Shown here: piece after piece, positions 33,376 through 53,734 of the stretch
How the letters are laid out: every line of letters starts with the position of its first letter
How positions within the stretch are numbered: position 1 is the first letter of the stretch
NCBI GenBank assembly: GCA_026419785.1
Contig: JAODTK010004298.1
Coordinates: forward strand, 124,001 to 188,000
Reading direction: 5' to 3'
DNA: 64,000 nucleotides
Origin: Sclerodactyla briareus
Taxonomy: Eukaryota; Echinodermata; Holothuroidea; Dendrochirotida; Sclerodactylidae
Program-made: the position numbers and the translations under genes
Notes under the pieces: generated by a model
What the model saw: only the letters and a program-made list of their open reading frames with translations
What the model was told of the DNA's origin: nothing
Databases searched by the model: none

Positions 33376-33450
<75 letters not shown>

Positions 33451-36400: not shown

Positions 36401-39400
36401 TACTCCCTGGTCAGATAACTAGCGGATCACTCGAAGAAAGTGTTATTAGGTCGAATAGTGGCCTGTGAGATTGGTGTTTGGACCCCCTTGACGAATGGAT
36501 CATACATTACTCCTAATGGGCATGTTGATTCTGCTGAACAGTGAGAATTTTAATACGCCTCATTCAAACGAGCACGTGTTAGTTCACTTTCTTACAACCC
36601 CTTCTTGAACTAGACATGTGCAGGTCGGTAAACCTCCGACGTGTATATCCCCGCGGAAACAGCCTTTGTGGACCTCGTTTAGCGGAATCACATTTGACCT
36701 CCAGTGACTTTGAAATGCCCTACCTGTTGTTGAAGATCAACTGTAGTCCACATTCCCAAAGTTTTGTTTAAATAGGACAAAGTTAGAAAAGTTGCACGAA
36801 TTATGCAAACTTGACCTCTGTTACCTTGAAAAATGACCTTCATGTTGTTGGAAAGTTGGAAAATCGGCGAAAAACAACAAATTTGATCCTCTGTGCACTC
36901 TTGAAATCACTGTCATGATATTCGGGACCAACGTTCGTCCCCACCCACCAAGTTCCGTGTGAATTGTACTATTTTCGTGTAAAAACCCACAAAATAGAGG
37001 GCAGCAGTGATGCCCACTTCCGAATTCATTCGAAATTTCACTAGGGCTGACATGTGTACCAAGTTTCAGATCAATCGGATGAAGCGTTAAAGAGTTATTG
37101 CGCTAATGCCTAAAGTTTCCGGAGGCGGCGGCTCCCGCGGCGTCGGTGCGTGGCGGGGGGATGGCGGCTCACGCGCCGAAACCATAGATTCCGAACAACC
37201 TAAACGTTTGCTCGTTGGATATCATTATATTCCATGGACTATTTCATATAGATTTTTATTTAGTTTTCTGATTCGAACTGTTGTGATAGTTTATGCTGTT
37301 CAGATAATACTTATGCTGTTCAGATAACAAGGCCCCAGCTAAATCCTTCCTTTTTGCGATTACCCCTCCTCCCTCCTTCCTAGTGGTGCCCTGGCACGGA
37401 ATGTATTAAAATGAATCCTAACACACACTCTCTCTCTTAGCATCATTCGCATTCATTTTGCCTCGTTTTTCTAGGGGACAGAGGAGATGTTCCCCCCAGA
37501 CTTATTCAAGGCGATGCTGGCCTGGCTCAAGAGAGAAGAGAATGACATCACTGATCACGGCGAGAAGAGCAATTTAGAGTCAGCGACACCATCTCCAACA
37601 TTGGAATGAGAGGAGTGTAAGTAGGGACGGTCATAAACACCCTGACGATGTCATCGTGAAGACCGTAGTGACGAATCGAAGATACATGTATATACTTGGA
37701 AATGAATGCGTTACCTCAATCAGGTAATAACAAGCAGCACAATTTATCGACCACAATTTCTCTTCCATTTTTTCACAAATAATCAATACAGCTACAGAAC
37801 ACAATTCAGATACTTCGACTTGTCGAAAGAAGAGCAAGAAAAACGAACAGCATCAATGATGGAGTGGAGGGAGAACCAGAAGTGAGAAGAATTTTTCGAC
37901 TGAAAACCAATATATAATAACAAGTCAGAGACAGACAGGAAAGGAAGAAATAACAAAAAAGAGAATAGAGAAATACAAAGGAAGAAGAGATGGAATGCAA
38001 GGCACACATAGGGGCTTCAGAAGGAAAACGCCACAACACGTTTAGGACCCTTCTTGATATTCTCGGATTCTCTTCCTCCATATCCGAATGGGATTCCGTG
38101 CTGTGATGTTCACCCGAGAGAAGTGCATGGCTCTCTACGTTTGCACATGTAACTTGTCTACAGAATTTAGCGAATTTTGGTCTGGTCATATACTAAAGAC
38201 GTCAACATGGAACCTGTTGCCTTCTCGCCAGCGCTCGGATTGGAGCAGGGGAAAACGAGGGGTAGGCAATTTGCGAATCATCGTCTGTATGTAACTATCC
38301 CCCCCTCACATTAAGGTAGTACAAAAAAAATCCCAAATCCTTATTCCGTGTACTTGTTGATGGATTTTTTAGATGACAATACCGGGTCCCGAATAGCTTC
38401 GATTCTCAGCTCGGCAAGAAATAACGAAAACGAAAAAGATTCTTGTCCTCATATGCCTTTTTATATTGCCCCCATGCAAACTGTATTCAATACAGGATGT
38501 TCATCTCGTGGAGTTCCCATCAGGAATATTCCGTATTCACATTTTCAAGAGGACGACATCAGAGATCTTTGGGTTGGAAGCGCTTTTGGATTTAGTTTTA
38601 ATGCTCTGCCAACGTTTGGGTGTGTAGCTCATCGACCAACCAAGAACTAATATTATCCCTGGTAAGTGCCTGATTAGACACACCAACTTGCATAAAAGGT
38701 GACTAGAAAAAGAATTATGGGTTGTTTTTTATTTTAATTAGGACGCAATGTGACTCTCACAAAGCCAGTGATTTCCAAAACGGATCCCAGGGGGCAGTTT
38801 AAGAAAACGCCCTGTTTACGACGACATTTTTATATATATATTCTCTCCACTATCCATTACTACAGGAAAGCCTCAGCGGAGTTGTCAGAGGTATTTGATT
38901 ACATAGTAACGCAGGAGGTAGACGGGCACCGATGTCTGGATACGGTACAGTGGCTCTGCATATACTTAGCAACTCATCCATGCATGGTTGCAGTACGACC
39001 GCTTCGCAAACTGTCATACATTCATGCACCTTTCAGATCTGTTGCGAAATTAGTTTTATCCTTTGAAGGATTCCTCTCATTATGTCCTGTTTAGCTCAAC
39101 TGACATACTATTCAAGCTAACCGATATTAAGATTCAAGATTAAGATTCGGTTTTATAGTCTTGTATCAAGGCCGCGCCTCCTCACACACTAGCGACTTAA
39201 TCCCCTGGTCATTGGTAACCTGATGAAGACCTCGCCCGCACCACCCAGGGTGCACGTTCGCTCACAGTACCTACGACACCCCTGGCATCCAACGCAGCGG
39301 CGCCTACTTCCGTTACTTCGCAGGTACTTTTACACGTGGGTAGCGTGAGACATTCGAGGAGACATGCTTGTCTAACAGCACTGCGGAAAACCCTCGTGCT

Positions 39401-42400
39401 TCACTGGGATTCGAACTCACAAGCTGATTGTTCATACGTCCGGAGCTCTCGATATGTATGTTGAAACTTGCAACGGTAGTATGCTTCGTACAACAGATTC
39501 CCCAGAATGTTGGTTGTTTTTGCTCTCTCGCCTTCGGTATGAAGAATTGTGTAACATTACCTCTTGCGACAACCCATGAAATGTTGATTATTGACTAAAA
39601 TGTAAAATACCAATCGCGTCTGTCTATCGGGTGGGTAACTAACGACCCGGAGTGGATTTATCGTAGCTACCTCAATGAAAAAGTCGGTTTGTAAAGCCAG
39701 GTATGTAGTAGGAAAACTTAGCTTCCAAACTACATAGACAATGAAATAAAACAATGCAGTCATTACACTTTACAAAAATGTTTAGGAATTAAACACTTTT
39801 CCAAACACTATTTTGAACCAGCTTTTTAAAACGCGTGTCAAATTTATAAACAATGTTTAATTGTAAATGTTTAATTGTTAACACGTATAGAGACTAACCG
39901 GTCTTAAAAGCTAGTTAAAAATAATGTTCAGAAAGTGTTAATCCCTAAATACTGTTTTAGATGTACGTTTTACCTGATGAGTTCTTCCACATATTGAGTT
40001 GTTTTTTCCGGAAGAACGACTTTAACGTTTGTTAAAAATATTCACAAATGACACGAACATTTATCAACAGAGCTCTCAAATCAATCTTCTCCCGACCTCT
40101 GCTAACCTCAGAACACATCCAACCCTATGCGCTAAAACCCTTCATCCCTGGCACGGTCAAACTTATGAAGTGCGAATGTGAGCAGTTTGGAGGAATGGCA
40201 GCGAAACGCATCGATAGTATTTACCAACAGACCGAGTTACTTCTCCCGTGTGCTGATACTGTGGTAGAAGTCTAAATTTAGAAGGGAAAGGTATCGACCC
40301 GATGCTTGACTGATTCTACCTAAAGCAGTAGTATTGCTGGGAATGCCATCGATGTATATATTTACATCTGTAACTGAATACGTATCTAATTTGAATCACG
40401 TGAGACACCTACGTTTGCTCCAGGATGGAGGTCAGTCGCAAATGCGCCATCGAATCGTTTCATCGATATCTGGTAAACGATGTTCAATTTCGATCTACTT
40501 CATGCGAGCCCGAGTTCAGTAGAAGCCTCGACTGGCATATCGCGTCATAAAGTCCTGGATGTGGTGTGGTGGCGTCGCAATATCTGAGCAAAAACCAGCT
40601 TCCGGTTTTTTGGCTCTCATGTGCGTCCTCTTGCTATATTCCAGTGATACCGGGACGATCACTGTTGAGCGGATACGGTATTGAATTTCTTTTTGACTAC
40701 TTCACTTTTCGGCCACATCGTTGGCAGTCTCGTGATCCAAATCCCAATGTCGATGATTTTGAGGGGAAGCGGATCATGTGGTGCGCCTTGGACGGACGAT
40801 CCTCCCACCGTGTCCTGTTGAACCGGATCCAAGTGAGTTAAGGCCGACCGCCGAGAGCCCCCCGTTGCTCATGGTTGGCGCAGCTTCGTATGTAGTGGGT
40901 GGGGGGGTTAGGGGTGGTCCAGCCCAGCCTGGTCGCGATTGGAAGAGGGGCGCGGCTAGGTTTTCCTTCCGTATTGTTCCCATGAGTGATATGAGTGAGT
41001 GAGTGGTGGACGGGGGTTTTATTAACTTTTCAGCAACTACTGGGTCCTCAATATCATTACCGAATAGGGCATTTATCCTTAAAAATTGAGTTTATTTTGA
41101 CTTCAACTAACCGGATAATGTTTGAAAACTGTCAGAGAACACCTACACTTATAAATCTTCATATATCCAATTACTTCAGTGGGTCTAACAAGCCCCTGTA
41201 TAAAAGCGCCTGAGAAAGTGATGAAACATTTTTGCAACTATCCGAGAGGCAGGCCGCGACTGGACGTGCGGGGGATAGTCCATCTTCGACAGTTTCTGGC
41301 GATGTTGCAATAGAGCGGCCAAAGTAGGTCGAATAAATAGGTTCTTCACCATGAACGAAACGTCGAGTAGAATGCTACAGTTGGTGTTTAAATCGGTAGA
41401 AGCCCCCCAAAAAAGATTTGTTTGTTCGAAAAACCCGCCTACCAACCTCCGGTCATGGCAGACAACCGCACCAGTCCGTTCTTAGTTTTCAAGTTATGGC
41501 AAGTGACTTCCATGAGCTCTGCCGTCCGTATGACTTGTGTGTATATTTTATTTTAGTAGTGAAGGGCCGGTACGGACGAGTCCTCCTGAACGACTCGAAC
41601 CACAACAACACAAGAAAGGAACTACAAATTGAAAGAATTCGCCCACAATTCCCTGAAAAATAGTCACGACTGTCCTCGAAGGCATTAACAATCATCGACC
41701 AGTCAACATATGCAGGGAGATATTCGACTCATTAATCATTCTTTGCGAAAGGAAATGTCGATCTGCAATCTGCAAAACGTTTACACGTAGCTCGAGAACA
41801 ACGGCTCCTAATTTAGTGGTAACATCGGAGAATAATTTAAAGAAGTAGTCTAGCGAAAGTTCTCTAATCCAAACGATGCGCAACAGATTGTGGTATTGTA
41901 TTTTCACTAACGTCTCTTTTTGTAGTTTTGTGGTTTCGAATTATGATAGGTCTGCTGTAGTCCACAACAAAAACACATTCGATACATTGCTCATCGACCT
42001 AGCAGCCATGAAAAATGTTAAGATCCTGAATCAAATGACTCTAAATTTGACTTTGCCCCATTCAAGTCAGATATGTACTCTTAATCTTACTCATACGGAA
42101 ATTCTCGGAGACAGTGAATTATTCTCGTGACCCTCGTTCGAACCTCCCAATTAGCAGCTTATCTTTCGTGAAATAAAGGGATTCTACACTTGAACGGAAT
42201 CCGTCCAGGTGAGGTCTTACACCAACTGCTCCACAGCATGCCACCAATGTTAAAAGAAATAATTACTTTGATTAAGAATAAAATAACCTCTCATAGCAGC
42301 TTCCGCACACTGCCAGGTAGGTTCAATGTAGAATCAAGATTCATATAAAGATCCTTTTCATTTTTTCCGCATTTATTTCTTGACTATTTAAATAAAACGG

Positions 42401-45400
42401 ACGCGTTGGCGTTATCATAGCCGACATGCATCACTCTGTTTCTATCGTCGTTGGAAAAACCATTGGGATATTTGTCCCAAATCCCTTCGAACATAACAAC
42501 TCATCATTCCGAAGTCACCTCCCGAATACAACTGGTCGTCGTCCGCAAATCTTTCAACTCAGAATGCACAGAATCCTCGAGATCGTTAATATAAAAACCA
42601 AAAGAGGAAAAACCAAGACCGATTCACCACTGGACCTGTCCAGGTCAAATACGCCCAAAATGAACTGTTCGCTGCGCCTATGTGAAGCTACTCTTGAATC
42701 CACTTCGGAACCTCCCGTTGATACGAACTCTCCAGTTGAAGAGGAGACGTTTATGAGGCACTTCATCAAAACTTGCTGAAAGTGCAGCTCGCCAATTAAC
42801 TCTGGATCACGATGTCAATTTATCCACAATATATGCATTCATCTATCCTTCCACAGTTCCTTAATTTATTTCCTCATTCGAAACTTGGTCATAATGTTTC
42901 CCATGAGGGGCATCATGGTACTAAGTTTAGGTTGAAGCCTGAAGGTCCGTATGTCATGGATGCGGATTAGTCAACCGTTGGTCGGTATTATAGGAGACCA
43001 ATGCTACATACCTCATTTTAGGTATTTGAGTTCCAAGGTAATCTAGGAGTCATTATAGCCAAATTGTCGTTTTGAGTTCATGAACGAAATCCTGCGTCAT
43101 CACATTGGTAGTCACTTGATACCCATGCATTTGATGATACATATGAGACTTTCAGGTGGTTTAGATTGAAGGTCAAGGGGCCAAGTTCAGTAATTTTTCC
43201 GAACTGTCAAGCGGCTGTACTCTTACAGACTGGATAAGATTATCATCAATTGTAGTCGGTATTAACACTGGTTAATTGTCTTCGAGATGTTCAGAATCTC
43301 CGAGGTTAAATTAATAGATTATCATTTGAGTTGGTCAGTATCATTAATGGGGTATATAGGGCATTCGGGACTTTGAGGTCAAAGTCAGTCGGCGATCACC
43401 TAGAGCTCTTGATAGAGATCATGTGAATGCAATGGCGGGATCGGGATTTTCCACACTGAACTGTCACGAATAGATAGGTGAGCTACTGTGACTGAGATGA
43501 AAACAGAAATGAATTACCAGATTAGAACTTTACTGTTTGGCTTCTCACACAGCGATTGCTGCCATACCTGAAGAATGTAATCGATGATTTGAGCAATACA
43601 TCCTGTGCACACATGGCATACATGGCGAATAGCTGAGGTGGCCAGCAGCATATCCGAAAGAAGTCGAGAAGTACTCGGACAAGCTTATCGAGACGTGGGA
43701 GAGGAATCCGATGACAGTATCGTCTGCGTGTAAACCATGGCGAATATTGGCAGGATAGATGAGGTAAATCTTCCATCGACACCTAATGAAAATTTAGAAT
43801 AATTGAAATGAATAAAAGATGAGTGTAATGCATTATAGGACACATACCAGAGTTTTCGAATGCATTTCGGTAATTCCGTTGTTACGTTCATATGCCTTTT
43901 CGCTCCATCCTATTAAACCGGTAATAGTACTTCTAACTACAGAAACTTGCTGACAAGTTATAACGATCTTCGCAACGAAGCTGAAGACTGTCGACCGATG
44001 TGGAAAACTATCATTCTCATGGAGATGAAGCGCATCGGCCAAGCTTTCAAAGAGCCATTGAAGAAGCACAGAGCCCAGATAGAAGCGGAGAAAAAAAACG
44101 GGACTCAGCCGGGTCTACCTGATATGGCACAGAGTATCATCGACTTCTTGGAAGACAGAACGTATGTGATCCCAAGTTATTCCGCTATTCCGGTGCTTCT
44201 TAAATCTAAATCACAGAAAGTCCTCATTGTTTATCTTTTTGAATACCTGAATAATTGGGGTAATTGTATGCCATCATATGTTTCGGACAAGCAAAACCGA
44301 GACAGCCACACAACAAGTGTTTTGCAAAGCAGAAATCCTAGTAGAACTAAAGTTACTTATTGTCATTGAGTCACGACACACTGGATCCTCGCCTTTTGTT
44401 TTTGAAAGTCTTCATTAGTCTGATACATGTGACACAACTAGTGAACGGAACGGTGATGGAATTTTGAATTTGACAAACACCATTTGGAGATGATTGTAGT
44501 AGTCATTGTGAGGATCTTCTTCTTATATTTGCAGACTGGAGAATTTGAGCACAGAGGTCGCCGATCAAAGGGACGACATCGATGACCTGGATAACCGGGT
44601 GACTGGAACAGAGGATGACATCAATCGTCTGGACGACCAGGTCAACGAGCAAGGCGAAAAATTGGAGAACGTTGAAAATGAAGTGACGGAACAGGGAGAG
44701 AGACTGGGTCATATAGAGGAGGTCGTCGATGATTTGATTGTAAAAGTGGATGAAATTGACTCATAAAAAAAAAAAAAAAAGGTAAGAGCGTCGTCTCCGA
44801 TCACTTCCGTATTCACACCTTCTCTTCTGCGTGTCATGAATAAAAAAGGGGAGTGAGAAGTGAGCATGGCATGTTAATACTTACTCACTACTTTGCAAAT
44901 CATAACATGGTCATACATGATCAATTCAGGAAATGTATCCATAGGAACTAATCAGGTGTCGCATTATCAAGAAATGAATTCAATGAATATAATCAAAATA
45001 TGCTCGCACTGCTCGAAGGAGATAGAGGAAGGGAATCGATTCGAGGGTCTTTAACAAGTTCCTAAGATGAACCGCCTATCATGATCCTAGCGCGCATACT
45101 GACTGCCCGCAGGTTTTATTATTTCAGGCAAATCTCATACACTACTATTCAGACCTGAATGTTGGTCAAATATCAAGTTTGGGGCTGATTTCGTGCCTAT
45201 ATCTTCTACACAAGATCGTGTTGAATCGAGTTGATCGAATCAGATGTTCTGCATGTTCCGCAACAAATCATACTAGAGCCAGAGAGAGAGAATCAAAACT
45301 CAGGACAATCAACAGAATCATGACGTAACCAGCAACCAACTAGCAGCTTACAAAACTCTGGGCCCATAACCTTCTGTTACCATACCCGTCCATTCATTTT

Positions 45401-48400
45401 ATTCCCTAACGATATCACTTTTTATTCAAATTAGACCATAACCAATGCACCCAAGTGGTCACGGGATATCGCTAAGATTTTGAACGTCGAGGATGAGTTT
45501 ATTGGCGTATTGGGATACGTCTGGGATATTCCGGTGAAGATATTCGCAACTGGGCCTGTCTCCTGACCCTACCATGTCCATTCTAGCAGAGTGGTACACT
45601 ACACATAAGAGCAGCGACGCAACCTTCGCAATCCTAACAGCCCTTCAGGACATGGGGAGAACAGAGGTGGCGGAAATTGTGGAGAAGGCGCTCGAGGCCG
45701 CAGGTAATTCATTTTGTCGTATTGTAAACAAGAGCAGCAATGCTGCTGTATCGACTTGTTAATCCAAGTTGAAAATAACATGGTCCTTCCATGCCATGTA
45801 AAGCATACAATACATACAATTCTAATATGATGCATATTTATAATATATATATATATATTTCCCCTTCAAGTACGCTAAGAACATTAGTGTTATTCTATCC
45901 AATTTGGTAATTGATATAGGTTGCGTTGCTGAAACATCGTGTTGACATATGTGTCAGGTGGAGTTCGTCTTCTTGGGCCCTTCGATTGTTTCGACATGAC
46001 AAAAAACATGTCCGCTACATATATGCAACATAAAATATATGGAGCCTGAGTGGCCCAGCTGTCAAACCTTCGAGGTTTTTTTTTTCGTAATCCATTGGTT
46101 GTGGGTTCCCGTTCACGTAGTACCCCTGAGCAAGGTAATTAATCCAACTGCTCCTCTCCACCTAGGAGTATGAATGCAACATCTGAGAATCTTGAGTACA
46201 ACCGACGCTGATATAGCTGCTGCCACATACTCTCCGAGGTTAGCGGAGTGCGTACCTGGTTCAAATATGCAGAGTAATGTTATAAAGCGCCTTCAGCAGC
46301 TGTTAGCTGGATTTGTGCGCTTTGTAAGACTACGGCATTATCAGGACTATAGCGCGGTATTACCGAATTTGAACCTAATCCATGTCCACAGTTCCTTGAA
46401 CATCGTGCTGACCAGACTAACCTCACAACACAAACACAAAGGAAACGCACACCCATGCGTATTTGTTTAACCATATTCAAACAGAACTGCTGAAATCAGC
46501 TATAGATTACCCCCTAACACCCCTCCTCTCCAGACACGGGATATTCCTTGGATACATAGATATAGAGGACACCCTAGTCTTTAACGCTCTTTGACTCATC
46601 GGTCCGCATCGGTCCGCCGATGACTACCCTATTCTATTGGCTTCCCCAGAAAAAACAATCCCGAAACCAGCAGGTGAGGTAGAGGTAGAAGACAAACCCT
46701 GCCCAATCTTCATCAGTTATCAGTGGGATCACCAGCCGGAAGTTAAGGTCATCAAAGAACATCTGGAAATGCTGGGTATCGCTGTTGGATGGACATCGGT
46801 CAGATGGGAGGTGGTGATCAGCTCTTCGCTAAGATCAACGAGGGCATGAGAGGTGCAAAGATGGTATTAGTATGGTCACTCAGAAGTGAGCAAAGTCAGA
46901 AAACTGCAACAAGGAGGTAGGTCTGTTTGGTCATTGCGGGAGTTCAGCGTTCCCAGTTATATAAAGCCTACCTCACACTGTGCGGAGTTCAAAGCCGCAC
47001 TGCGTACGGTGACCGCTCGCGGTAACCGCATGCGTAGTTTTTGACCGCTTGCGAAAGCTAACGCTCGACTGCGCATTCAACCGTAAGCTTTCGCGAGCGG
47101 TGGCCGTATCGTTTTGTGACACATACCGAGAAAGTCGCCGAAGAGATATATCTCATTTCGAAGGTATTGTGTGAACGCCTTCCAAGAGCTACAGGAGAAA
47201 AAAGGTTTTGGTACAAATCAGTATAAACGGTACTTCTTCCAGTCGCCCAACTTTGAAATGAATTATAGCCCTTACAGAAGTACGTTGACCTTGCGGAATC
47301 CCTGCATTTTTAACTCGTTTAAAACATTGCAATCGAAGTTCGCAAGGCTTAGGGATTGCCGTACGGTCCCGCCCCACACTTGCAGTCACACGGAAACTAT
47401 TGGCATGACCGTAAACTGTCGCAAGCCTTACGGAGGACGAATTCCCTACAGTGTGAGGCAGGCTTAACACTACCGTAACGATAGAGTTAACAATGTAAAA
47501 GGACACGCAGACAATACTTCACCCAACATCCTCCTTTTCGTCAGGTAAATCTAGCGAATCTCCTGAACAAGCCAATCGTTCCCATCCTGATAGAGACACG
47601 CCCTGGCCTCCGGAGGGTTCGATGAGCATGCTCTTCGCGCAGCTGCTTTATATACAGTTTTTCCCGACTGGCGAATACGTCAGAGGAGAGAAGTTCTGGC
47701 CAGATGCCAAGTTCCACGAGTTACTAGGACAGATCGGCTACAGCGCAGCACCAGACCCAGAAATGATTACCACAGGTAATTACACCACACTATTTAGGGA
47801 TTGTGAAATGTATAATTATCTGAGCGCCACGACTACTGTTAGTATTAGCTCGAGCTTCATATTGAATTTTCCCAGATAAAGTGAATAGAAGGCATGTGTC
47901 GTTTTTCGGAATAAAGTACCTCCGTGACTTACACACGTTTTATCTTTTTGGCAGAAATAGAAACTGGGTACCGACGATTGAAGATAAACCAGAAGTGAAA
48001 GTTGTGAAGAAGTCTTCAGGGACAACTCCGTCCTCTCAGAAAGACCCCTCGGAAGAGGTATGCCAGGATGACCAAATTAGATTGTCAATGCTGACCGATC
48101 GATATCAAGTCAATATGCTATTGATGAATATCCGTTGCAAAGGGAAAGAAGAAACTCGACGACGACTTATCGGGACCACCATACGACTTATATGGGGCTG
48201 TGATTACACTATGTACGCTTGCTGAGAATTTTAAAGTATTCAAAGCAATATGCATGGCCCGCATCATCTCAAAGTTGGTTTGGAACTACATCGTGATTAG
48301 GTTAGCAGAAAAGGAGTAAACGAAACGGGGGCATTTCGGGGGACAACGGAGTGTACTCGGGTTGATCACCGAGAATGATTGGAAGATTCAATGGTACAAC

Positions 48401-48975
48401 AGAGTACTAGGACCTAGAATATGGGGCAAAATCTGTCTTTGCATACGGAAAGTGGGATTATCCCAAAGATTTTTTGAAATAGCTCATTCTAACTTTCGTG
48501 AAGGGTTTCTACTGACATTTTGTTGCATCCCATGAGTTATTTTAAACTCGAGGCATTGTGTCATTCACATAGTCTGATAGTCCAACCAACAGGTTGTGCT
48601 GAAATGGGTTAATGTACAGACAAAAATTCGACTATAACATGCGAATTGATTGCGGATGTATAGAGCTCTATAAATATCTATGCGGACTGTGGGATGACTC
48701 GATCCGGTAAACAGGCCCAAACTGAAACACGCGATCGAGCACCAACACAAGTAGAGTATAGATAAAATATAATTTATTACCATTTTCTTCCGCCCACAGC
48801 AGTGGAATACTCAGCCAACTGTCTTCAATCATACCAATGCGGGGAAATGCAGCCACAGATCAAGAAGGTTTTAACCAACTGACGAGGTTGGGATTCTCGT
48901 GTTGGTTAGACATATGCAGATGGGTGGTGGCGATCCTCTCTATCCAAGATTGACAAAGGAGTTCGAAACGCAGAG
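19608..48975 (+). CDS. Death-TIR-TIR adaptor-like gene (whole locus, about 14 exons)
   Basis: Parent entry for the exons listed separately. The product is inferred to be roughly 800 residues: a helical N-terminal half, an acidic coiled coil, a Death domain, a TIR domain over two exons, a Ser/Lys linker and the first half of another TIR domain. Death and TIR domains are homotypic interaction modules of innate immune and NAD-metabolism signalling in the cytosol; the Death-then-TIR order is that of MyD88. Phases agree at 22895/25206, 25206/26263, 43943/44535, 45435/46650, 46650/47545 and 47545/47955, which supports one transcript. Most exons carry one-base frameshifts despite good splice sites, suggesting read errors. 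The true 5' end and the last exon are uncertain; candidate later exons are at 50.6 and 51.4 kb. Confidence 0.7.
20200..21500 (+). mobile_element. LINE reverse-transcriptase fragment, 3' half
   Basis: With frame changes the translation shows a non-LTR reverse transcriptase. Around 20430-20560 are [26 protein letters not shown] and [11 protein letters not shown], equivalent to the family's GxRQGSxLSPxLFNxYxDDL. The active-site box reads FAHADN (near 20605-20622) in place of YADD. Further on come [11 protein letters not shown] (20930s) and a C-terminal stretch with [20 protein letters not shown] (about 21030-21090). A TGAATAAATGAATAG word at 21491-21505 may be its tail. There is no 5' half, many frameshifts and a damaged active site, so it is a dead copy within the intron of gene 1. 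Confidence 0.75.
21501..21879. other. No recognised feature
   Basis: Unremarkable intronic sequence after the LINE tail. Confidence 0.4.
21880..22065 (+). repeat. Tandem duplication, period about 125 bp
   Basis: GAGGTTTCCCTACAATTTGA plus AGTTTGAGTAATAAGAATTG at about 21882-21925 recurs as GAGGTTTCCCTACAATTTAA plus AGTTTGAGTAACAAAACTG at about 22012-22050. Both are followed by TATGTTGC. Confidence 0.75.
22590..22790 (-). mobile_element. SINE-like unit with A and B boxes (minus strand)
   Basis: On the minus strand CGAGTGGTTGGCACAGTTGG and TAGAGCGTCGGCATGG (about 22722-22762) form a strong A box, and AGGTTCGATCCTC (22600-22612) a B box. They are about 120-140 bases apart, too far for a plain tRNA, so this is a tRNA-derived repeat or one interrupted by an insertion. 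GCCAACCACTCGG is duplicated at 22746-22773. It lies just before the exon at 22895. Confidence 0.55.
22895..23015 (+). CDS. Death-TIR gene exon (helical region)
   Basis: A polypyrimidine-rich stretch and ACAG end at 22894, and GTGAGT starts at 23016. The 121-bp exon is open from phase 2 to phase 0. It encodes a basic, amphipathic stretch including [19 protein letters not shown] and [18 protein letters not shown], likely two helices. No frameshift is needed. The phase-0 end matches the phase-0 start at 25206. The fold is not recognised; an ARM/HEAT-like or other all-helical domain is possible. Confidence 0.65.
23155..23375. repeat. Self-complementary minisatellite
   Basis: At least five imperfect units of the kind CCCGGTTTATCGGTCGATAAACC alternate in orientation: GGTTTATCGGTCGAAGAT, GGTTTACCGATCAATAAACC, GATAAACCAGGCTTATCGAC, GGTTTATCAGTCGATAAACC. 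Each unit is near-palindromic, so the block could fold into hairpins. It lies 140 bp after an exon. Confidence 0.75.
23376..25205. other. Intron, no recognised feature
   Basis: A C-run at about 23513-23535 and several open frames around 100 codons on both strands (23.3-24.5 kb) without motifs or splice sites. Confidence 0.4.
25206..25369 (+). CDS. Death-TIR gene exon (helical region)
   Basis: The acceptor TTCTTCTTCTAG ends at 25205 and the donor GTACGT starts at 25370. The 164-bp exon is fully open: a helix ([18 protein letters not shown]), an Asp/Trp-rich turn ([13 protein letters not shown]) and another helix ([16 protein letters not shown]). It starts in phase 0, as the 22895 exon ends, and ends in phase 2, which fits the exon at 26263. 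This is one of the few exons without a frameshift. Confidence 0.7.
25370..26262. other. Intron with unassigned open frames and a shared 30-mer
   Basis: The AACAGCTGCAAAACCTCTAC-TGAACTGCAAAAAA block at 25501-25535 is shared with 10864-10900. Overlapping open frames on both strands (25441-25899 plus, 152 codons; 25680-26024 minus, 114 codons) have no motif I recognise. One of them may be an old mobile-element frame. Confidence 0.4.
26263..26391 (+). CDS. Death-TIR gene exon, one frameshift
   Basis: Acceptor CTCTTTATACAG ends at 26262, donor GTAAGT starts at 26392. One base completes the codon left by the previous exon. The frame reads [14 protein letters not shown], then after a one-base change reads [20 protein letters not shown] and DCSEMSYE to the donor in phase 0. 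The unshifted frame also stays open until a TGA just before the donor. The phase-0 end fits the exon at 37475. A basic-then-polar helical segment; no fold named. Confidence 0.6.
26392..27053. other. Intron and probable 5' flank of the P2X7-like gene
   Basis: No repeat or frame recognised. The last part should hold the promoter and leader of gene 2, but I can name no motif. Confidence 0.4.
27054..27300 (+). CDS. P2X7-like gene, N-terminal part
   Basis: ATG at 27054 follows AGAAAA and opens MSSDSGGPD. After frame changes around 27081-27110 a 62-codon acidic stretch runs from GACGAGGAAGAC (27111), with PYQFEP near 27177-27194 and an Ala/Glu-rich tail ([16 protein letters not shown]), to TAG. 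An AATAAA lies downstream at about 27446. Either the exon runs into an intron whose donor has been lost, or the ATG-to-TAG piece is a small separate reading frame. Confidence 0.6.
27054..30331 (+). CDS. P2X7 C-terminal-like zinc-domain gene, exon split by a hAT-like element
   Basis: Small protein resembling the cytosolic C-terminal domain of P2X7 receptors, which occurs alone in many invertebrates with unknown role. The first part (27054-27299) starts MSSDSGGPD; after two frame changes it reads [18 protein letters not shown] and then PYQFEP, a typical N-terminal motif of the class, ending at TAG 27298-27300. The central exon (28204-29184) has the zinc ligands CSCGRC and HCC, then [13 protein letters not shown] and FELA; a 0.76 kb element follows; then [14 protein letters not shown] and donor GTAAGT. 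The last exon (30176-30331, acceptor TACTACCAG) has [19 protein letters not shown] and [10 protein letters not shown], ending PLLD-TAG. The link between the first and second parts is missing, so an exon may be unseen. It is nested in gene 1, same strand, and is probably inactive unless the element is spliced out. Confidence 0.75.
27301..28203. other. Intron of the P2X7-like gene
   Basis: In the family, an Arg/Gly/Asn segment leading to a Trp should lie just before the CxCGxC motif. I could not find an exon for it here. Otherwise nothing stands out. Confidence 0.4.
28204..29184 (+). CDS. P2X7-like gene, central zinc-motif exon, interrupted
   Basis: Acceptor CCAAATAG ends at 28203, donor GTAAGT starts at 29185. 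28205-28290 reads [18 protein letters not shown] and a Glu/Arg-rich tail; after one frame change (between 28292 and 28315) it reads [20 protein letters not shown] and an Ala at 28374-28376. The element fills 28377-29137, and 29144-29184 continues in the expected frame as [14 protein letters not shown]. CxCGxC, the CC pair and CITxHxGFxxxCL are hallmarks of the class. Confidence 0.75.
28377..29137 (+). mobile_element. Non-autonomous hAT-like element, family D copy 2
   Basis: Left end GTGGTGGCGCCATGATTTTC, right end CCCGCTGGCGCCACCCCTG, inverted. It shares TATTCCCAATAACTGCACAG, ACCTGGGCAC, AACTAGCATCCTCC and TTTTCACTATGAATAA with the copy at 8747-9510. A palindrome GGCGCGCGAAGCGCGCC is at 28899-28915. 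The left flank AGTTGGCA (28369-28376) and the right flank GGTGCA (29138-29143) look like a degraded 8-bp target duplication. No transposase frame. At 761 bp it is nearly full length relative to copy 1. Confidence 0.8.
30176..30331 (+). CDS. P2X7-like gene, last exon
   Basis: The polypyrimidine-flanked acceptor TACTACCAG ends at 30175. The open frame reads [35 protein letters not shown] and, after a less conserved stretch, GIQYPLLD and TAG at 30329-30331. AYRQ..W..G.LGR...  ..P.CVV..IR is the core C-terminal signature of the class. One base must be added or lost at the junction with the previous exon. Confidence 0.75.
   Translation, partial: GYRYTAYRQLVRWFCGFLGRHVRVPLPACVVCPIRRSAIGIGCGIQYPLLD
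30332..33377. other. Intron of gene 1, no recognised gene
   Basis: About 3 kb of moderately AT-rich sequence. A minus-strand stretch at about 31960-32340 is open for long runs with two stops and reads protein-like in places, but matches nothing I know. A C-run lies at about 31768-31789. Confidence 0.4.
33378..33460. repeat. 71-base poly(C) tract
   Basis: Uninterrupted C from 33378 to 33448, then AA, ten Cs and AATCCCCC. It is the longest homopolymer in the window. The poly-Pro and poly-Gly open frames across it are artefacts. Confidence 0.97.
33461..34240. other. No recognised gene
   Basis: Ordinary AT-rich sequence up to the target site AATGTGTA (34233-34240) of the next element. Confidence 0.4.
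34241..36045 (+). mobile_element. Non-autonomous hAT-like element, family A copy 1 (1805 bp)
   Basis: Left end CAGGGGCGGCGATC (34241), right end GTGACCTCCGCTCATG (to 36045), imperfect inverted repeats. Subterminal AAATATTGGGGGG tracts occur at both ends, with GGGGACATGTCCC near the right. Flanks AATGTGTA (34233-34240) and ATTGTGTA (36046-36053) are an 8-bp target duplication with one mismatch. Inside is a tandem array (about 34301-35130), then a unique part with GCGCGCAGCGCG (35809-35820). No transposase; mobilised in trans if at all. Confidence 0.85.
34301..35130 (+). repeat. Internal tandem array of family A, about 175-bp unit
   Basis: About five units, each with GAAGGAACTGATCTAT, TTCATTACA-TTCGCGCCACC, ATCAGTGGACGCGTAG, AAGGAAAATTTTCG, CCCAGATTGCAGGAAACGG and TATGGCAGT-AGCAACGTC. 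The two units at about 34401 and 34580 are almost identical, which points to recent duplication; the outer ones are diverged. The same array makes up 55850-56530 of the other copy. Confidence 0.85.
36690..36960 (-). repeat. GGTCA-type repeat array, inverted
   Basis: Blocks such as TTGACCTCCAGTGACTTTGA, GTTGAAGATCAACTGTAGTC, GAATTATGCAAACTTGACC and AAAATGACCTTCATG are the reverse-strand form of the units at 4390-4860 and 8460-9800. Confidence 0.6.
36990..37250 (+). repeat. Dispersed CGG-rich repeat, copy 2
   Basis: ATGTGTACCAAGTTTCAGAT, ATCGGATGAAGCGTTAAAG, AGTTATTGCGCTAATG, TTTCCGGAGGCGGCGG, a GC-rich stretch, then GAAACCATAGATTCC, in the same order as 6420-6600. Confidence 0.65.
37475..37616 (+). 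CDS. Death-TIR gene exon, one frameshift
   Basis: A TTTTGCCTCGTTTTTCTAG acceptor ends at 37474; donor GTAAGT at 37617. In phase 0, as the exon at 26391 ends, it reads [20 protein letters not shown] and [10 protein letters not shown] one-base change near 37570 then gives [15 protein letters not shown] to the donor, while the unshifted frame meets a stop just before it. The shifted frame ends in phase 2, which does not fit the 43553 exon, so another exon may lie between. Confidence 0.6.
37617..38209. other. Intron, no recognised feature
   Basis: Purine-rich stretch at about 37800-38000; open frames on the minus strand there have no motif. Confidence 0.4.
38210..38320 (+). repeat. 3' body shared with the SINE-like unit at 3.7 kb
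   Basis: GCCTTCTCGCCAGCGCTCGG, ATTGGAGCAGGGGAAAACGA, GGGGTAGGCAATTTGC and a CATTAAGGTA word match about 3795-3905. No A or B box is seen upstream, so this is a 5'-truncated copy. Confidence 0.65.
39130..39440 (-). mobile_element. SINE-like element, inverted copy of 49430-49760
   Basis: The reverse complement starts with a B box, GAGTTCGAATCCCAG (39402-39420), and runs through GTGCTGTTAGACAAGCATGT, CTCCTCGAA, CACGCTACCCACGTG, GGAAGTAGGCGCCGCTG, GCCAGGGGTGTCGTAGGTAC, CTGGGTGGTGCGG and CAATGACCAGGGGATTAAGT. The same order is found at 49430-49760 on the plus strand. A clear A box is not visible. Confidence 0.75.
39441..40644. other. No recognised gene
   Basis: AT-rich sequence with short open frames (for example 40048-40275) lacking motifs. 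Confidence 0.4.
40645..40833 (+). CDS. Candidate exon, unidentified
   Basis: A TTGCTATATTCCAG acceptor ends at 40644, donor GTGAGT starts at 40834, and the frame between is open for 62 codons. It includes [32 protein letters not shown] and a C-terminal [11 protein letters not shown]. It could belong to gene 1, between the exons at 37475 and 43553 (the phase-0 end would fit the latter), or be chance. It does not look helical like its neighbours, and no family is recognised. Confidence 0.35.
40834..42124. other. No recognised gene
   Basis: Nothing matched. Several open frames around 80 codons on both strands at 41.2-42.1 kb carry no motif. Confidence 0.4.
42125..42245 (-). repeat. tRNA-like head (SINE remnant)
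   Basis: On the minus strand CATGCTGTGGAGCAGTTGG and TGTAAGACCTCACC (about 42205-42241) resemble an A box, and GGGAGGTTCGAACGAGGG (42132-42149) a B box. The two are about 70 bases apart, longer than in a tRNA gene. Confidence 0.4.
42420..42830 (-). mobile_element. LINE reverse-transcriptase fragment
   Basis: Read in shifting minus-strand frames: [11 protein letters not shown] (around 42770-42740), [29 protein letters not shown], then [14 protein letters not shown] and later ISQWFFQR. This is the order of a non-LTR reverse transcriptase of the jockey/CR1 kind ([36 protein letters not shown]). Several frameshifts; both ends missing. It lies in an intron of gene 1, antisense to it. Confidence 0.7.
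42831..43552. other. Intron, no recognised feature
   Basis: Scattered GAGGTCAAA-like words (for example 43160-43180 and 43370-43385) hint at another old GGTCA-type repeat, without a clear unit. Confidence 0.35.
43553..43763 (+). CDS. Death-TIR gene exon (helical), frameshifts
   Basis: CTTCTCACACAG ends at 43552; donor GTAAAT starts at 43764. It reads [20 protein letters not shown] and MAYMANS, then after a one-base change [20 protein letters not shown] and [12 protein letters not shown], followed by a stop in that frame with further open sequence in another. Long amphipathic helices. The end phase depends on a further indel, so the junction to 43943 is not proven. The minus-strand open frame over the same bases is a shadow. 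Confidence 0.5.
43943..44161 (+). CDS. Death-TIR gene exon (helical region), intact frame
   Basis: Acceptor TTCTAACTACAG ends at 43942 and donor GTATGT starts at 44162. Open throughout: [20 protein letters not shown], then [20 protein letters not shown], a Lys/Glu-rich bridge, and [15 protein letters not shown]. The exon ends in phase 2, completed by the first base of the 44535 exon. Predicted strongly helical; the function is not recognised. Confidence 0.7.
44162..44534. other. Intron
   Basis: No repeat or RNA gene seen. The upstream exon frame stays open for some 70 further codons past the donor, which does not look coding. Confidence 0.4.
44535..44781 (+). CDS. Death-TIR gene exon: acidic coiled coil
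   Basis: Acceptor CTTCTTATATTTGCAG ends at 44534, donor GTAAGA starts at 44782. In the phase set by the 43943 exon it reads [40 protein letters not shown] and on to [13 protein letters not shown], with Leu, Val or Ile at heptad a/d positions over about 70 residues, a long parallel-type coiled coil. It may drive self-association. A 17-A run before the donor puts a TAA in this frame; a one-base length error there would instead give an Ile-Lys-rich end, so the stop is doubtful. Confidence 0.75.
44782..45434. other. Intron
   Basis: No repeat or frame of note. Confidence 0.4.
45435..45703 (+). CDS. Death-TIR gene exon: Death domain
   Basis: Acceptor TTTATTCAAATTAG ends at 45434, donor GTAATT starts at 45704. 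With two one-base changes (near 45505-45525 and 45560-45570) the translation runs [20 protein letters not shown], then [10 protein letters not shown], then [20 protein letters not shown] and [20 protein letters not shown]. The W..IA..LNV start, the ILAEW segment and the [17 protein letters not shown] end are the classic helices 1, 4 and 5-6 of a Death domain. About 89 residues is the usual domain length. It probably recruits other Death-domain proteins. Ends in phase 1, as 46650 requires. Confidence 0.8.
45704..46034. other. Intron
   Basis: A short AT repeat at about 45841-45859; otherwise nothing. Confidence 0.5.
46035..46170 (+). mobile_element. tRNA-derived SINE head
   Basis: GAGCCTGAGTGGCCCAGCTG and TCAAACCTTCGAGG form an A-box region. 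GGTTGTGGGTTCCCGTTCAC (46100-46119) holds a B-box-like GGGTTCCCGTTC. Then CCCTGAGCAAGGTAATTAAT and CCAACTGCTCCTCTCCACC resemble a central domain (CTTGGGCAAGGCACTTAA) that I know from SINEs of many marine animals. Confidence 0.65.
46650..46916 (+). CDS. Death-TIR gene exon: first TIR domain, N-terminal part
   Basis: TTCTATTGGCTTCCCCAG ends at 46649, donor GTAGGT starts at 46917. Phase 1 as expected: [19 protein letters not shown], then box 1 [20 protein letters not shown]. After a one-base change it reads [20 protein letters not shown] and MRGAKMVLV (box 2/BB-loop region); after another, KSENCNKE at 46893-46916. The final Glu, in an S..C..E context, sits where enzymatic TIR domains such as SARM1 keep the catalytic Glu of NAD cleavage. 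NADase activity is an inference only. Splice phase 0 into 47545. Confidence 0.85.
46963..47467. mobile_element. MITE, about 505 bp, terminal inverted repeats
   Basis: AAAGCCTACCTCACACTGTG and CGGAGTTC at the left are the inverted match of GAATTCCC-TACAGTGTGAGG-CAGGCTT at the right, with a few mismatches. The interior has arms CGCTTGCGAAAGCT and AGCTTTCGCGAGCGG, so it can fold. The target duplication is unclear (TA or TTA at both ends). No transposase. It sits in the intron that divides the first TIR domain. Confidence 0.75.
47545..47775 (+). CDS. Death-TIR gene exon: first TIR domain, C-terminal part
   Basis: CTCCTTTTCGTCAG ends at 47544, donor GTAATT starts at 47776. It reads [17 protein letters not shown], then after a one-base change [37 protein letters not shown] and [29 protein letters not shown] is the beta-D strand region and EKFW the box 3 Phe-Trp of TIR domains. 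With the previous exon the domain is about 140 residues, normal for the fold. Ends in phase 1. Confidence 0.8.
47955..48057 (+). CDS. Death-TIR gene exon: linker between TIR domains
   Basis: TTTTGGCAG ends at 47954, donor GTATGC starts at 48058. Phase 1: EIET, then after a one-base change [18 protein letters not shown] and [13 protein letters not shown]. Charged, Ser/Lys/Pro-rich, probably disordered. Ends in phase 0, as needed by 48800. Confidence 0.65.
48058..48799. other. Intron
   Basis: No recognised repeat or frame. Confidence 0.4.
48800..48975 (+). CDS. Death-TIR gene exon: start of a second TIR domain
   Basis: CATTTTCTTCCGCCCACAG ends at 48799; GTAGGC starts at 48976. It begins QWNTQPTVF; after one-base changes it reads [17 protein letters not shown], then [17 protein letters not shown] and IDKGVRNAE. 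Piece by piece this parallels the first TIR exon (SYQ...[13 protein letters not shown]-like, [16 protein letters not shown]). The remainder of the domain should lie in a later exon, which I could not identify. Either a true TIR-TIR protein or the start of a neighbouring TIR paralogue fused by my reading. Confidence 0.65.
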
Positions 48976-49429
48976 GTAGGCTTGATAGGTTTTTGTCCCT
49001 AGGAATGGTCCAGACTCAGAATAAATAATTGTTTTTTCTGTTTTCTGTTGTCGTTGCTGTTGTTCGATTAGAATCTTGGATCTTGGATAGTACACTGTTC
49101 CAAGGCTTCTACCAAGGAGCCACGCGGGCAGGATATGGGTTGGCGCAGCGTAAAACAAACAAACAACTAATCAGTTCCGGGTGAGTTGAGCTGGGCCTAC
49201 CTGGTTGCCAACTGCGATCTTGAATATGTTATGTTCTTGGGTGACGAACAGGAAGGGTCGGGCATTCCGATGACGGATGGTTATAAGCACGAAAGAATAC
49301 TTGTAGCAGTAGTTTTTATTTGATAGGATGGCGTAGGAATCAGGATGCTTCATGTCGCGACAGACGCTGGTTCCATAGGCATGGAAATGCACCAAATATA
49401 ACCGTTTTAAAAACCGCAAGGCGTCTCAT
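48976..49429. other. No recognised feature
   Basis: No convincing plus-strand continuation of the TIR fold was found. A minus-strand open frame lies at 49171-49419. Confidence 0.35.
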
Positions 49430-49760
49430 ACCTTTATTCTTAGTTTCGAGGGTTCTGTTTTCGAGTTCGAATCAAGGTGAAGGCCCGAGGAGCTTTCTCC
49501 GTAGTGCTGTTAGACAAGGGCATGTCTCCTCGAAGTTCACGCTACCCACGTGGAAAAGTGGGTACCTGCGAGGGGGGAAACGGAAGTAGGCGCCGCTGGC
49601 GTTGGCTGCCAGGGGTGTAGTAGGTCGTGAGCGAAAGTGCACACTGGGTGGTGCGGCAAAGTCTCCATCAGGTAAACAATGACCAGGGACTAAGTCGCGA
49701 GTAGTGTGAAGAGGCGCTGCCTATACACGACTAAACCCGAATTTAATCGTAAGCGCGCCG
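49430..49760 (+). mobile_element. SINE-like element, partner of 39130-39440
   Basis: GAGTTCGAATCAAGG (49462-49476) is the B box. The body then matches the reverse complement of 39130-39440 block by block, including GTGCTGTTAGACAAGGGCAT, CACGCTACCCACGTGG, GGAAGTAGGCGCCGCTGG and CAATGACCAGGGACTAAGTC. I judge identity around four in five by eye. Confidence 0.75.
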
Positions 49761-50639
49761 CAAGTTTTTGCACTATTCGATCTGCTATATTTGGTTCTCT
49801 TATTCTCTTTCTTATACGGGTCCCCCACACAGCAGCAGATACTCAAAGTAGGGTTCACGAACATGATTAGGCTTCAAGCGGGGTCGACTGGTTACAACAA
49901 AATCAGGTTGCGTCTAACAAAGCTCAATGATCTGTTTGCTCCCCAAAAATCGGCTCTGACTGAATTCTACCTATTTCCAACTTAGATTCTGGAAATAGAA
50001 CACCCAGGTAAGAAAGGTCAGCAGAAGGAGAGGACATCACCAGAGTGTAAGGGAAAAACCTTAGGAAACCTAGCATGGATGATATCATGACATGACATTT
50101 TGAGGAGTTTGCCACAGATCATAATGTGGGTCTTTTTTTTTTAACAAGTCTGCATTTTCATCAGTCTTAATCTCCCGATGAATAATGCAGTCCGTCGGAA
50201 AATAGAGAAAACACACAGAAGTCAACTTTGAAAGCATGCAGAAAAAAACACGTTCCTTTTCCATCCAAGTTGGATTTTTTGAAAGACTTTCGAATTTGTT
50301 TGCTTCCTTCTATGAGATTTGGTCAGTTAACCATGGTTTGAATGTGTTCTCGTCAAACACAGAGCATGAAATGAAGGCAATTGAATGCTAATCGTGTACA
50401 AACCAGATAACTTGGCTTCCTTTACGACAGGGTGTTCTTTGTGTCACTTCGAATACTCTCTGTCTGCAACTGAAGGAGAGACGTCAGCCTATCAGATGTC
50501 TCGTAAAACAGTATACCCAGTCTTCTGGAGGACGGTTATGCCGTGCCTCCTTGCTGGACCAATGAGCATGAACATTTACACAGTTACTATACATGACTTC
50601 ACAAAAAATCCCAGTCAAAAGAATTTCAGGACGAAGAAA
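49761..50639. other. No recognised gene
   Basis: Short open frames only; none with a domain signature. Confidence 0.35.
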
Positions 50640-50960
50640 TTTTACGAGCAGTCCATTAAAATACAGGAATATGTCCAGCCAGAAGGATGAGGTCATCATC
50701 CAAGAAAAATCCACAACCTACCAACGAATTTGAGAAGTCGTCGACAACAGATGAGTCTTGAAGAGGGACCCGCGAATTCACCGACAGAGATGCGAGCTCA
50801 AGGGGACGCAAAAGATGAAAAGGCGCCCTCATCCGAGCAGTGCTAAATCCTGCCAGCACAACCCGCCAAGGGAGAGAACCAGACCCGAGAGAGCGATCAT
50901 CCTCGCCGAACCGAAACGAAAGGAAAAAGTCTCTGTATGCACTTGATTATGAGATATCAA
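50640..50960 (+). CDS. Possible disordered exon(s), unidentified
   Basis: In shifting frames the region reads polar and low-complexity, such as KKNPQPTNEFEKSSTTDES, EEGPANSPTEMRAQGDAKDE and KAPSSEQ, then a basic Arg/Ser/Pro stretch (REPDPRERSSSPNRNERKK). It resembles the linker at 47955 in character and may be a tail or linker of gene 1. Splice sites are not clear. It could be non-coding. Confidence 0.3.
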
Positions 50961-51442
50961 CTCTCCTGAAGGCACCACAAATTGGACAAAATTGTTGGAA
51001 ACGCTTACTGCCATTACCATAGATCTACACCCCACCTACCATCCCCCGTACAATGATGAGAGCAACCAACAATGGTGAATACGACAGTGTTGGAGTCCCG
51101 AATCCAACATGGGTGAGGGAGCGAGAGTACTCCCCTTCAGGTATGAGGGGGTGTTCCAACGAACTTTGTCCAAGATTGCAAGCCGATCCACCCGCCCTCC
51201 CAATGGCCCGGCCCCCTTAAGGGGCGAGCGACCCCGTACGGCGATATAATTCCAAATTGCTCCTTTTGGAGTTGTTTTCGTTATTCCACGACAACGTCAG
51301 ACCAAGTGATAAGAGTCGAGACATGGGACAGCATTGGTTAACGAGAACTGATTGATATTGAGATGAGCAACAGGGATGAGGAAAATTGAACAATGCTTTT
51401 TTTTGAACGGCTGTGAAACAGTACCTTCTGGAATATAATTAG

Positions 51443-51629
51443 ATTCGAGTGGAACCTCAGAAGCGGACCAAATTCACTCACAAGCATATCTCTATCACAG
51501 CTAAATACTTGGTGATTGCGGTATATGTATTTCACGCCAACGGTCATGCAGAAGTGATTGGAGTACCAGACACAGAGACAGTTTTAACTTCGCACTGGGA
51601 GAACATTACTGAACACATACAGCAGCAGA
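51443..51629 (+). CDS. Candidate exon, unidentified
   Basis: ATATAATTAG ends at 51442 and GTAAGG starts at 51630; the 187 bp between are open: IRVEPQKRTKFTHKHISITA, KYLVIAVYVFHANGHAEVIG and VPDTETVLTSHWENITEHIQ. It may be a later exon of gene 1. No domain is recognised; I do not claim it as the missing half of the second TIR domain. Confidence 0.4.
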
Positions 51630-53734
51630 GTAAGGAACATAATTGCGTCTCCTCAATTTGGCCCGTTGCCGGGGGCATTGACTAGACCATAAGTTGATGA
51701 TGAAACCCATCACCGGAGCCGCGAACTCACTCAAACGCGTGTTTCCTATTACAGTGTGAGTGTCGTCACTCTTCAGGTACCACAATATGAAATCTTGCTG
51801 GAATGAGCCTGCTGATGTAACGCCCCAGTCGTTTAATTTTCCACATGTACTTGTCAAGTTGTGTTTCGCGGAACGGCATCCTCGTGTCCCCTATAATCTA
51901 AAAGCACCACGAGTGCCATTGAAGTCCAATGTGGTGCAGATTTGTCAGTGTCTCAGAAGAAATTATAGTGAAGAATAATTTATTTTGAAATCATCGGATC
52001 TGATTGATATATCTTTTTGCATTCACGGGGAGAAATTATTGTTGGAAAGATCCGGATAGAATATTTTATCCGCGTTTTATCGAGGTATTCATGGAACTAT
52101 ATCTATCTCTGAATAGTATACATGCAATAATTTCATTCCAATAATTGCCCATCAATTTACTAAGCAGATTACTGGAATGAAAGTAATGTCTCCCAATCTG
52201 GGTATCGAGTTATTAGTTTTTTAGTGTGAAAGCCAGCTATGCCGGTTCAGTGTATGTGATCCGCGTGCCATTTCATTTTCTCTGTTCAGCTCTGCTACCG
52301 ATGTGGCACTTACAGGGCAAGGGGGGATGTCTATAAAGGGTCATAATGGGCCGTTATGTGGAAAATTACAAAATGTATCACTCACGAAATTAGGTAAGTT
52401 AATTTTTAATAATCAATAAAGGAGAAAAAATACATCTTTTTCTACTCTCTATGGACTATTATTCATTGTTATCATTGACCTGTGGTACCTATGGGTTTGC
52501 ATGACATCGCCAGGGGCAAAGGTCATTACGAGGGCTTAATAGTGAGACTATTTTGTGAGAAATGCGAAATTCATATCCTTCTCACAGATCCAGCTGGAAT
52601 ATATTGATACTTGGTCTATGAAACTATTATTCACTAGTAGTGCCTAAGAATGTTCAGGGATTCAAAGTCGAAGGTCACGATAACGTGGCACAATGAGTTT
52701 CACCTTGAGAGAAAAATGTACAATACATTCCCTTGTAGACCGAGTAGGGCTTCCATGATACTTGGTCAATGCGAATGCTAGGTCAACGATTATTTAATGT
52801 TCAGTCTGAGCCATTTATTTTATTTAAAATGTTACGTCAGCTATATTTTTATAGACCTCTTCTACACAAGACGTACATCAGACTGAGTATCACATGCCCA
52901 GCGAGGGTTGCGTAATTCTCTACGATTTGAGAGTCTTTCATGTGAAAATTGCAAAATAATTTTCTCTAACAAAACTAGTCAACTATGTGCACGAAGGACA
53001 CAATTGTGCGTGGATCTCTGCAGGTATCATTGAATTTGTGGAATTTCAGCCACCATTGGTAATTGGTTTTCACAAAAAAAAAAAATTCGGGCTGGTTTCG
53101 CTCGTTTGCTTAGAATGGTCTTATCCTTTGTCATCATAGTAGATGGCTTGGCAGGAGGTTTTTTTTTTTTTCTTCACAGCTGGGTGCTCTTTCATGCTGC
53201 CAACTTCCCCATTCATCCAGGCTCGGGACGAACAGCAGGCAGTATTGGCTTGTATCCCACTGCTGGCGCTCCGGCTATGCCGAGAAGTTGGAAGGAGAAT
53301 TAATATAGACGAAGAGGGGAAAGAGTTCATGGGACCATAGAGCACACCCCACTGTTTTTGTTGAAAGCATGTGATAGAAAGAACAATGGTCGACGACGCG
53401 CAACATTACACCTAGTTCCCTATATACTATATGGTTTGTTCTACCGATTACTGATTTAAAATGTAGTTTCGTTCTGTGTTTTGTTTTGTTTAAATGGGCA
53501 ATAGTGTCAGGTGTGGCGTTTCCGGTCAAGCAGCCGACAAGCTTTTACCTCCTTCAGTTCGACGCGGACCAATATAAAGTCTCCAGTTGTTGCAGCGATC
53601 TGATTCTGTTTGTGTGGTGGCGGCGCGCGCTTCGCAGCGCTTATATAAAGCGTTTCAGTTTATGCTCATCATCATCCGCATACATATTACAGTATCGGTA
53701 CAGAAAGCGGCTGAAATATTGTTGTCAGTTTCAC
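51630..53734. other. No recognised gene
   Basis: A few GGTCAAAG/AAGGTCAC words (about 52515-52530 and 52665-52680) suggest an old dispersed repeat. A T-run at 53159-53172 and a palindrome GCGCGCGCTTCGCAGCGC at 53623-53640. Confidence 0.4.

Follow-up and report, generated by a model that had tools for sequence, protein, structure and literature searches.

The 64,000-nucleotide stretch of Sclerodactyla briareus DNA analyzed here (the window; bases 124001 to 188000 of contig C2414, which is 284,909 bases long and belongs to a 319-Mb assembly of 3,171 contigs) contains a multi-exon gene that, in our best explanation (probability of about 0.52, judged from sequence), is a constrained gene for a double-TIR signaling protein assembled through a coiled coil and a Death domain and probably consuming NAD; we give the NAD-cleaving part of this explanation about even odds. 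The window gene (copy A) is one of four related copies, A to D, on the contig, of which D could be read only in part. Comparison among them supports a single predicted protein with a Death domain and then two TIR domains, placed behind a coiled coil. If this reading is right, it would be an unusual protein of innate immunity.

The gene spans approximately 19.6 to 50.7 kb of the window (~31 kb), since coding exons shared with copy B, C, or D reach upstream to an ATG near 19608. It reads as an animal-type gene on the basis of its introns and domain types. The first-pass annotation had placed the feature at 43553 to 48975. The first of these positions is not the start of the gene, given the shared coding exons that extend upstream to the ATG, and the second bisects the second TIR, whose remaining half lies at ~50431 to 50687 and is matched in copies B and C. 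All exons are on the forward strand. Exon 1, with the probable start codon (19608 to 19779), has a coding match to copy B at 195553 to 195727 of C2414; coding matches to copy B also mark front exons 2 (22890 to 23015), 3 (25206 to 25376), and 4 (26258 to 26394), and front exon 5 (37475 to 37617) has them to copies B and C. Front exon 6 (38810 to 39055) is tentative, with unsettled ends, and comes from a tblastx match to copy B, while front exon 7 (40087 to 40278) is matched in B, C, and D. Exons 1 to 4 are thus found in two of the four copies (A and B), exon 5 in three, and exon 7 in all four. Two more front exons, helical by eye and matched in B and C, lie at 43550 to 43757 (donor-like GT after it) and 43949 to 44162 (AG and GT edges). 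An (ATAC)n array of ~34 units (19404 to 19540) ends 68 bases 5' of the probable start codon. We omitted 42526 to 42803 as unsettled, as it resembles copy C but in shifting frames.

Behind the front come the coiled coil (44533 to 44763; also in B and C), the Death domain exon (45435 to 45705; B, C, and D), the two exons of the first TIR (TIR1a, 46651 to 46918, aligned part 46682 to 46919; TIR1b, 47546 to 47776, aligned part 47548 to 47765; both in B, C, and D), a linker exon (47955 to 48058; found in B, not found in C or D), and the two exons of the second TIR (TIR2a, 48800 to 48978, and TIR2b, ~50431 to 50687, the latter with an acceptor-like AG; both in B and C). AG and GT edges, placed by hand, flank the coiled-coil, Death, TIR1a, TIR1b, linker, and TIR2a exons. 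After the TIRs the protein appears, by eye, to end in a hydrophilic tail. The stretches 51406 to 51563 and 52095 to 52308 match copy B but in no consistent frame, and we took them as tail, untranslated region, or intron rather than as exons.

Nowhere can the protein be read as one open frame: frame changes occur within exons of the window gene, and we joined exon frames by hand before scoring them against the curated Pfam cutoffs (Death PF00531, 22.6 bits; TIR_2 PF13676, 28 bits; PF01582, 21.3 bits). In the three raw forward frames of 43100 to 52999, Death scored 19.5 bits and TIR_2 17.6 bits in one frame and 16.5 bits in another, all below threshold, and nothing was reported at 48800. With frames joined, the Death domain proposed at 45435 to 45703 is recovered (45435 to 45705; 26.7 bits, E = 6e-6), as is its counterpart in copy D (25.6 bits), both above the PF00531 cutoff; the nearest proteins reached by the Death profile are NRADD (E = 0.0025) and p75NTR (E = 0.0043). 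A complete TIR across two exons, as the annotation had it, is likewise borne out, with TIR1 scoring 71.2 bits (E = 1.4e-19) and copy D TIR1 59.6 bits against PF13676. Once frame-corrected, then, both the Death domain and TIR1 of the window pass the Pfam cutoffs. The further TIR suggested at 48800 fares less well: that exon scores as TIR only when joined with its second exon, but the window copy stays under the TIR_2 cutoff (21.8 bits, E = 2.7e-4) and only copy C TIR2 exceeds it (51.2 bits, E = 2.2e-13). For TIR1a, the reference score was 226 to 385 in the four copies versus ≤0 on 40 random forward-strand stretches from the first 120 kb of the contig.

The predicted coiled coil holds up well. 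The frame stays open and intact through all 77 residues (11 heptads); in the best of the seven registers, LIVMAFYN residues fill 18 of the 22 a/d positions, and every one of the 11 a positions holds L, V, or I. An in-frame TAA occurs at 44764 to 44781, before the long A run that ends this exon; donor-like GGTAAG follows. The copy B translation proceeds without this A run. The in-frame TAA and A run are likely an assembly error. For the remainder of the front, a helical appearance is a judgment by eye: the joined front has no family match in Pfam or PDB, including ARM/HEAT, and in one further search its matches were confined to the coiled coil. We considered an ARM/HEAT front because three exons (those beginning at 37475, 40087, and 43550) suggest helical repeats by eye, but did not adopt it, there being no such Pfam or PDB match. 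SAM had no match in the raw frames of 43100 to 52999 or in the joined pieces, where broken frames could conceal one.

We searched the rest of C2414 with eight pieces of the window and then compared it with the window by blastn and tblastx. Copies B (~195.5 to 223.8 kb of the contig) and C (~243.5 to 267.8 kb) lie head-to-tail with A, and copy D (~109 to 93 kb) is inverted. Both B and C repeat the order of two front exons, coiled coil, Death, TIR1a, TIR1b, TIR2a, and TIR2b; copy D has front exon 7, Death, TIR1a, and TIR1b, and its second TIR is a candidate fragment only. The combination of a Death domain and a duplicated TIR behind a coiled coil, first proposed from the window, therefore recurs: Death is followed by two TIRs in three of the four copies (A, B, and C), and by TIR1 in the fourth. 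Because this order recurs in paralogues, the architecture is not a random chain of exons. It might still represent two neighboring genes, one Death-TIR and the other a separate TIR gene, within a repeated cluster: the linker exon is present in just two of the copies, the order was read from genomic sequence, and an entire two-gene unit could likewise be duplicated. We regard this as very improbable, given that Death, TIR1, and TIR2a follow one another within ~3.5 kb in A, 5.3 kb in B, and 5.1 kb in C, that a contig-wide search placed TIR2 matches behind TIR1 in all three, and that an acceptor-like AG opens TIR2a.

Genome-wide Pfam model searches recovered one exon of the cluster, the TIR exon of copy D, and no raw window exons. 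PF13676 matched three exons, the best of which was this intact copy D exon (C2414, 98557 to 98784, minus strand); PF00531 gave eight Death matches and PF01582 three TIR exons (on C2888, C1553, and C2065), none on C2414. The raw exons of the cluster are too fragmented by frame breaks, or too divergent, for the Death and PF01582 models to pick up. A genome-wide search with the TIR1 protein gave 10 matches, a lower bound in a noisy assembly, and all were on C2414; the PF01582 exons on C2888, C1553, and C2065 therefore lie outside this close group.

Several repeats accompany the cluster. An inverted pair of ~290 bases at 82% identity occupies 39138 to 39418 and 49463 to 49748 of the window, and part of it recurs in copy C near 263.6 kb as a dispersed element within the cluster. 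Tandem arrays at 34395 to 34744 (~177 bases) and 55891 to 56505 (~191 bases) have units that share sequence by eye; perhaps they are one satellite-like or mobile repeat flanking the Death-TIR-TIR exons. A 16-base minisatellite forms mutually reverse-complementary arrays at 62171 to 62300 and 62687 to 62912, the second of which is read as repeated open frames at 62.6 to 63.0 kb.

The broken frames raise the question of whether the family is degenerate, its copies being pseudogenes disrupted by frameshifts. Aligning eight exons to reference proteins while allowing for frameshifts gave, over 605 codons, 21 frameshifts in A, 36 in B, and 37 in C, each of these copies also having one in-frame stop, and such counts favor decay; copy D had 3 frameshifts in 245 codons and no stop. 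The ratio of a single stop per copy to 21 to 37 frameshifts, however, points away from decay, as does the pattern of change between A and B. Mismatches number 283 in 2,900 columns of exon and 618 in 3,168 of intron, so that exon substitutions are at half the intron level, whereas gaps are equally dense (153 in exons, 108 of them single-base, and 187 in introns, 116 single-base); exon limits in this comparison were set by hand, and introns were counted only where blastn still aligned, so intron change is understated. Over all exons (218 to 545 codons), dN/dS is far below 1 in all six pairs (A-B, 0.37; A-C, 0.17; A-D, 0.12; B-C, 0.21; B-D, 0.14; C-D, 0.21), values to be read with high dS near saturation and with reference proteins guiding the frame, which biases toward similarity. 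Single domains are higher in places, for example 0.72 for the Death domain between A and B (85 codons). Exon substitutions are most frequent at the third codon position, and this includes exons 1 to 5, exon 7, and the linker, where A-B differences, for example, numbered 54, 41, and 72 at codon positions 1, 2, and 3 in 319 codons.

As a control we used HSP70 from the same genome. Of its 14 matches, 13 fall on contig C2424 (19056 to 123210), apparently from at least two genes; these HSP70 copies could themselves be decayed. Two exons are unbroken over ~80 codons and 8 of the 14 matches are free of stops, so that noise elsewhere looks milder than in A to C, in favor of pseudogenes. On the other side, HSP70 is broken too: 6 of the 14 matches have internal stops, and one exon of ~96 codons shifts frame three times. 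With some HSP70 exons broken and others intact, indel noise must be uneven across the assembly. Taken together, the halved substitution density in exons, equally dense gaps, low dN/dS, and partly broken HSP70 lead us to read the frameshifts as assembly noise, and on balance the copies appear to be constrained genes; pseudogenes are an unlikely account.

Other observations concern the assembly itself. A C homopolymer of 83 bases at 97% purity occupies 33378 to 33460 of the window and may mark an unreliable point in the assembly. COX1 had no match in the whole assembly; this result, the three matches each for PF01582 and PF13676, and the near restriction of HSP70 to a single contig could mean that the assembly is noisy, is incomplete, or lacks its mitochondrial contig.

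The TIR duplication that had been proposed is supported by comparison of the domains. The second TIRs of A, B, and C are 34 to 45% identical to window TIR1, and in a tree of the seven TIRs (no outgroup; long branches flagged) TIR1s and TIR2s fall on opposite sides of a branch with support of 100/100. Since the TIR1s part from the TIR2s with this support, duplication within the gene probably predates the gene copies. Intron positions differ between the two, falling after NCNKE in TIR1 and after RNAE in TIR2.

By sequence, both TIRs seem to resemble NAD-cleaving TIRs more closely than they do the classic MyD88 adaptor. The best PDB matches to window TIR1 are a chain named Molecular chaperone Tir (E = 3.7e-4), AbTIR over the same residues (E = 8e-4), and SARM1 (from E = 0.0012); MyD88 and TLR/Toll chains are absent among its 27 PDB matches to E = 1. 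A profile of all seven TIRs retained only Molecular chaperone Tir (E = 0.0031) and AbTIR (E = 0.0065) to E = 0.01, and SARM1 was lost. The Glu of NKEV in TIR1 aligns with the Glu of HKEI in the SARM1 chain, the catalytic residue of that enzyme. A Glu of this type is read in five of the seven TIRs (TIR1 of A, C, and D; TIR2 of B and C); window TIR2 has Asp, and copy B TIR1 has Lys in a stretch taken as out of frame. PF01582, the Toll/MyD88 type, gave no reported match for A and 12 bits for D, under its cutoff, and the place of Box 2 in the TIRs reads DIGQMGGGD. A 2026 atlas of eukaryotic TIRs (PMC13142454) cautions that TIR_2, a broad model with matches in almost all TIR clades, names no subtype and is not itself evidence of NADase, and that PF01582 marks largely the Toll/MyD88 clade. 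The MyD88 order that the first-pass annotation saw thus stands insofar as Death precedes TIR in A to D, but the TIRs themselves match TIR_2 rather than PF01582 and have AbTIR and SARM1 as nearest solved relatives. For these reasons NAD signaling is the better half of its guess of an immune or NAD-signaling scaffold.

The same architecture could, however, belong to a nonenzymatic adaptor, whose TIRs would dock on receptor TIRs while Death recruits a kinase or a caspase-like partner, as in MyD88; this carries substantial, if minority, weight. Death domains are usually recruiters, the order of Death then TIR is that of MyD88, and window TIR2 has an Asp at the catalytic-type position. Tandem TIRs occur also in Toll receptors of mollusks (PMC4929906). 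The adaptor is harder to reconcile with TIRs that are not of the PF01582 type, with DIGQMGGGD in place of the MyD88 Box 2 motif (as given in PMC7075850), and with AbTIR and SARM1 as the nearest solved TIRs.

SARM1 has a helical front and an oligomerizing middle before its C-terminal TIR. The protein predicted here resembles it in having a helical-looking front, a middle predicted to oligomerize before TIR, and the aligned Glu; it differs in its Death domain and coiled coil, the lack of a SAM match, its two TIRs, and a front without an ARM/HEAT match, and the sequence similarity of SARM1 to window TIR1 is weak. With MyD88 it shares Death before TIR, but its TIRs are of the TIR_2 type with another Box 2, there are two of them (in A, B, and C), and they follow a long coiled-coil front.

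Reportedly, Gerdol et al. cataloged families of TIR-domain-containing proteins in bivalves and other animals in 2017, and that catalog may already list Death-TIR-TIR. No open-license paper was found under phrases such as Death-TIR-TIR and DD-TIR-TIR. Precedents for two or tandem TIRs include mollusk Tolls (PMC4929906) and TirE of an amoeba. The mollusk tandem-TIR Tolls (PMC4929906; HcToll-2, cited in PMC10869415) are like the protein here in having two TIRs and a place in invertebrate innate immunity; they are Toll receptors, whereas here Death precedes the TIRs. In the atlas (PMC13142454), Toll/MyD88 form clade 1 and SARM1 clade 8, and animal clades 10 to 13 are uncharacterized; the latter are animal TIRs distant from Toll/MyD88 and SARM1, as here, a likeness by description.

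Coiled coils and Death domains oligomerize or recruit, and the TIRs of SARM1 and MyD88 act when brought together. In the explanation we favor, a double-TIR protein that probably consumes NAD, the protein would be cytosolic, with a front that senses or serves to be held and a coiled coil and Death domain that oligomerize it. Oligomerization would gather both TIRs of each chain, and those of neighboring chains, into a TIR assembly of the NAD-cleaving type; in innate immunity or cell death, that assembly may degrade NAD or turn it into a signal. In principle this would be closer to SARM1 than to MyD88, that is, a hydrolase or signal maker switched by oligomerization.

The active site of SARM1 is a two-molecule site, built between chains. 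Two TIRs per chain would be able to pair in cis, so a site of the SARM1 type could be formed partly within one chain. We therefore raise, tentatively, a more specific proposal: a clustered animal family of Death-gated, coiled-coil-assembled double-TIR NAD hydrolases whose TIRs pair in cis. At the writing of PMC7075850, SARM1 was the sole animal TIR with known NADase activity. Since most of its TIRs carry the catalytic-type Glu and several clustered copies are kept under selection, the Death-TIR-TIR family is a concrete candidate for a second kind of animal TIR enzyme, and it would make it possible to ask if the destruction of NAD can be switched by a death-fold. If true, a family of Death-gated double-TIR hydrolases would couple recruitment through a death-fold directly to the loss of NAD in the immunity of invertebrates.
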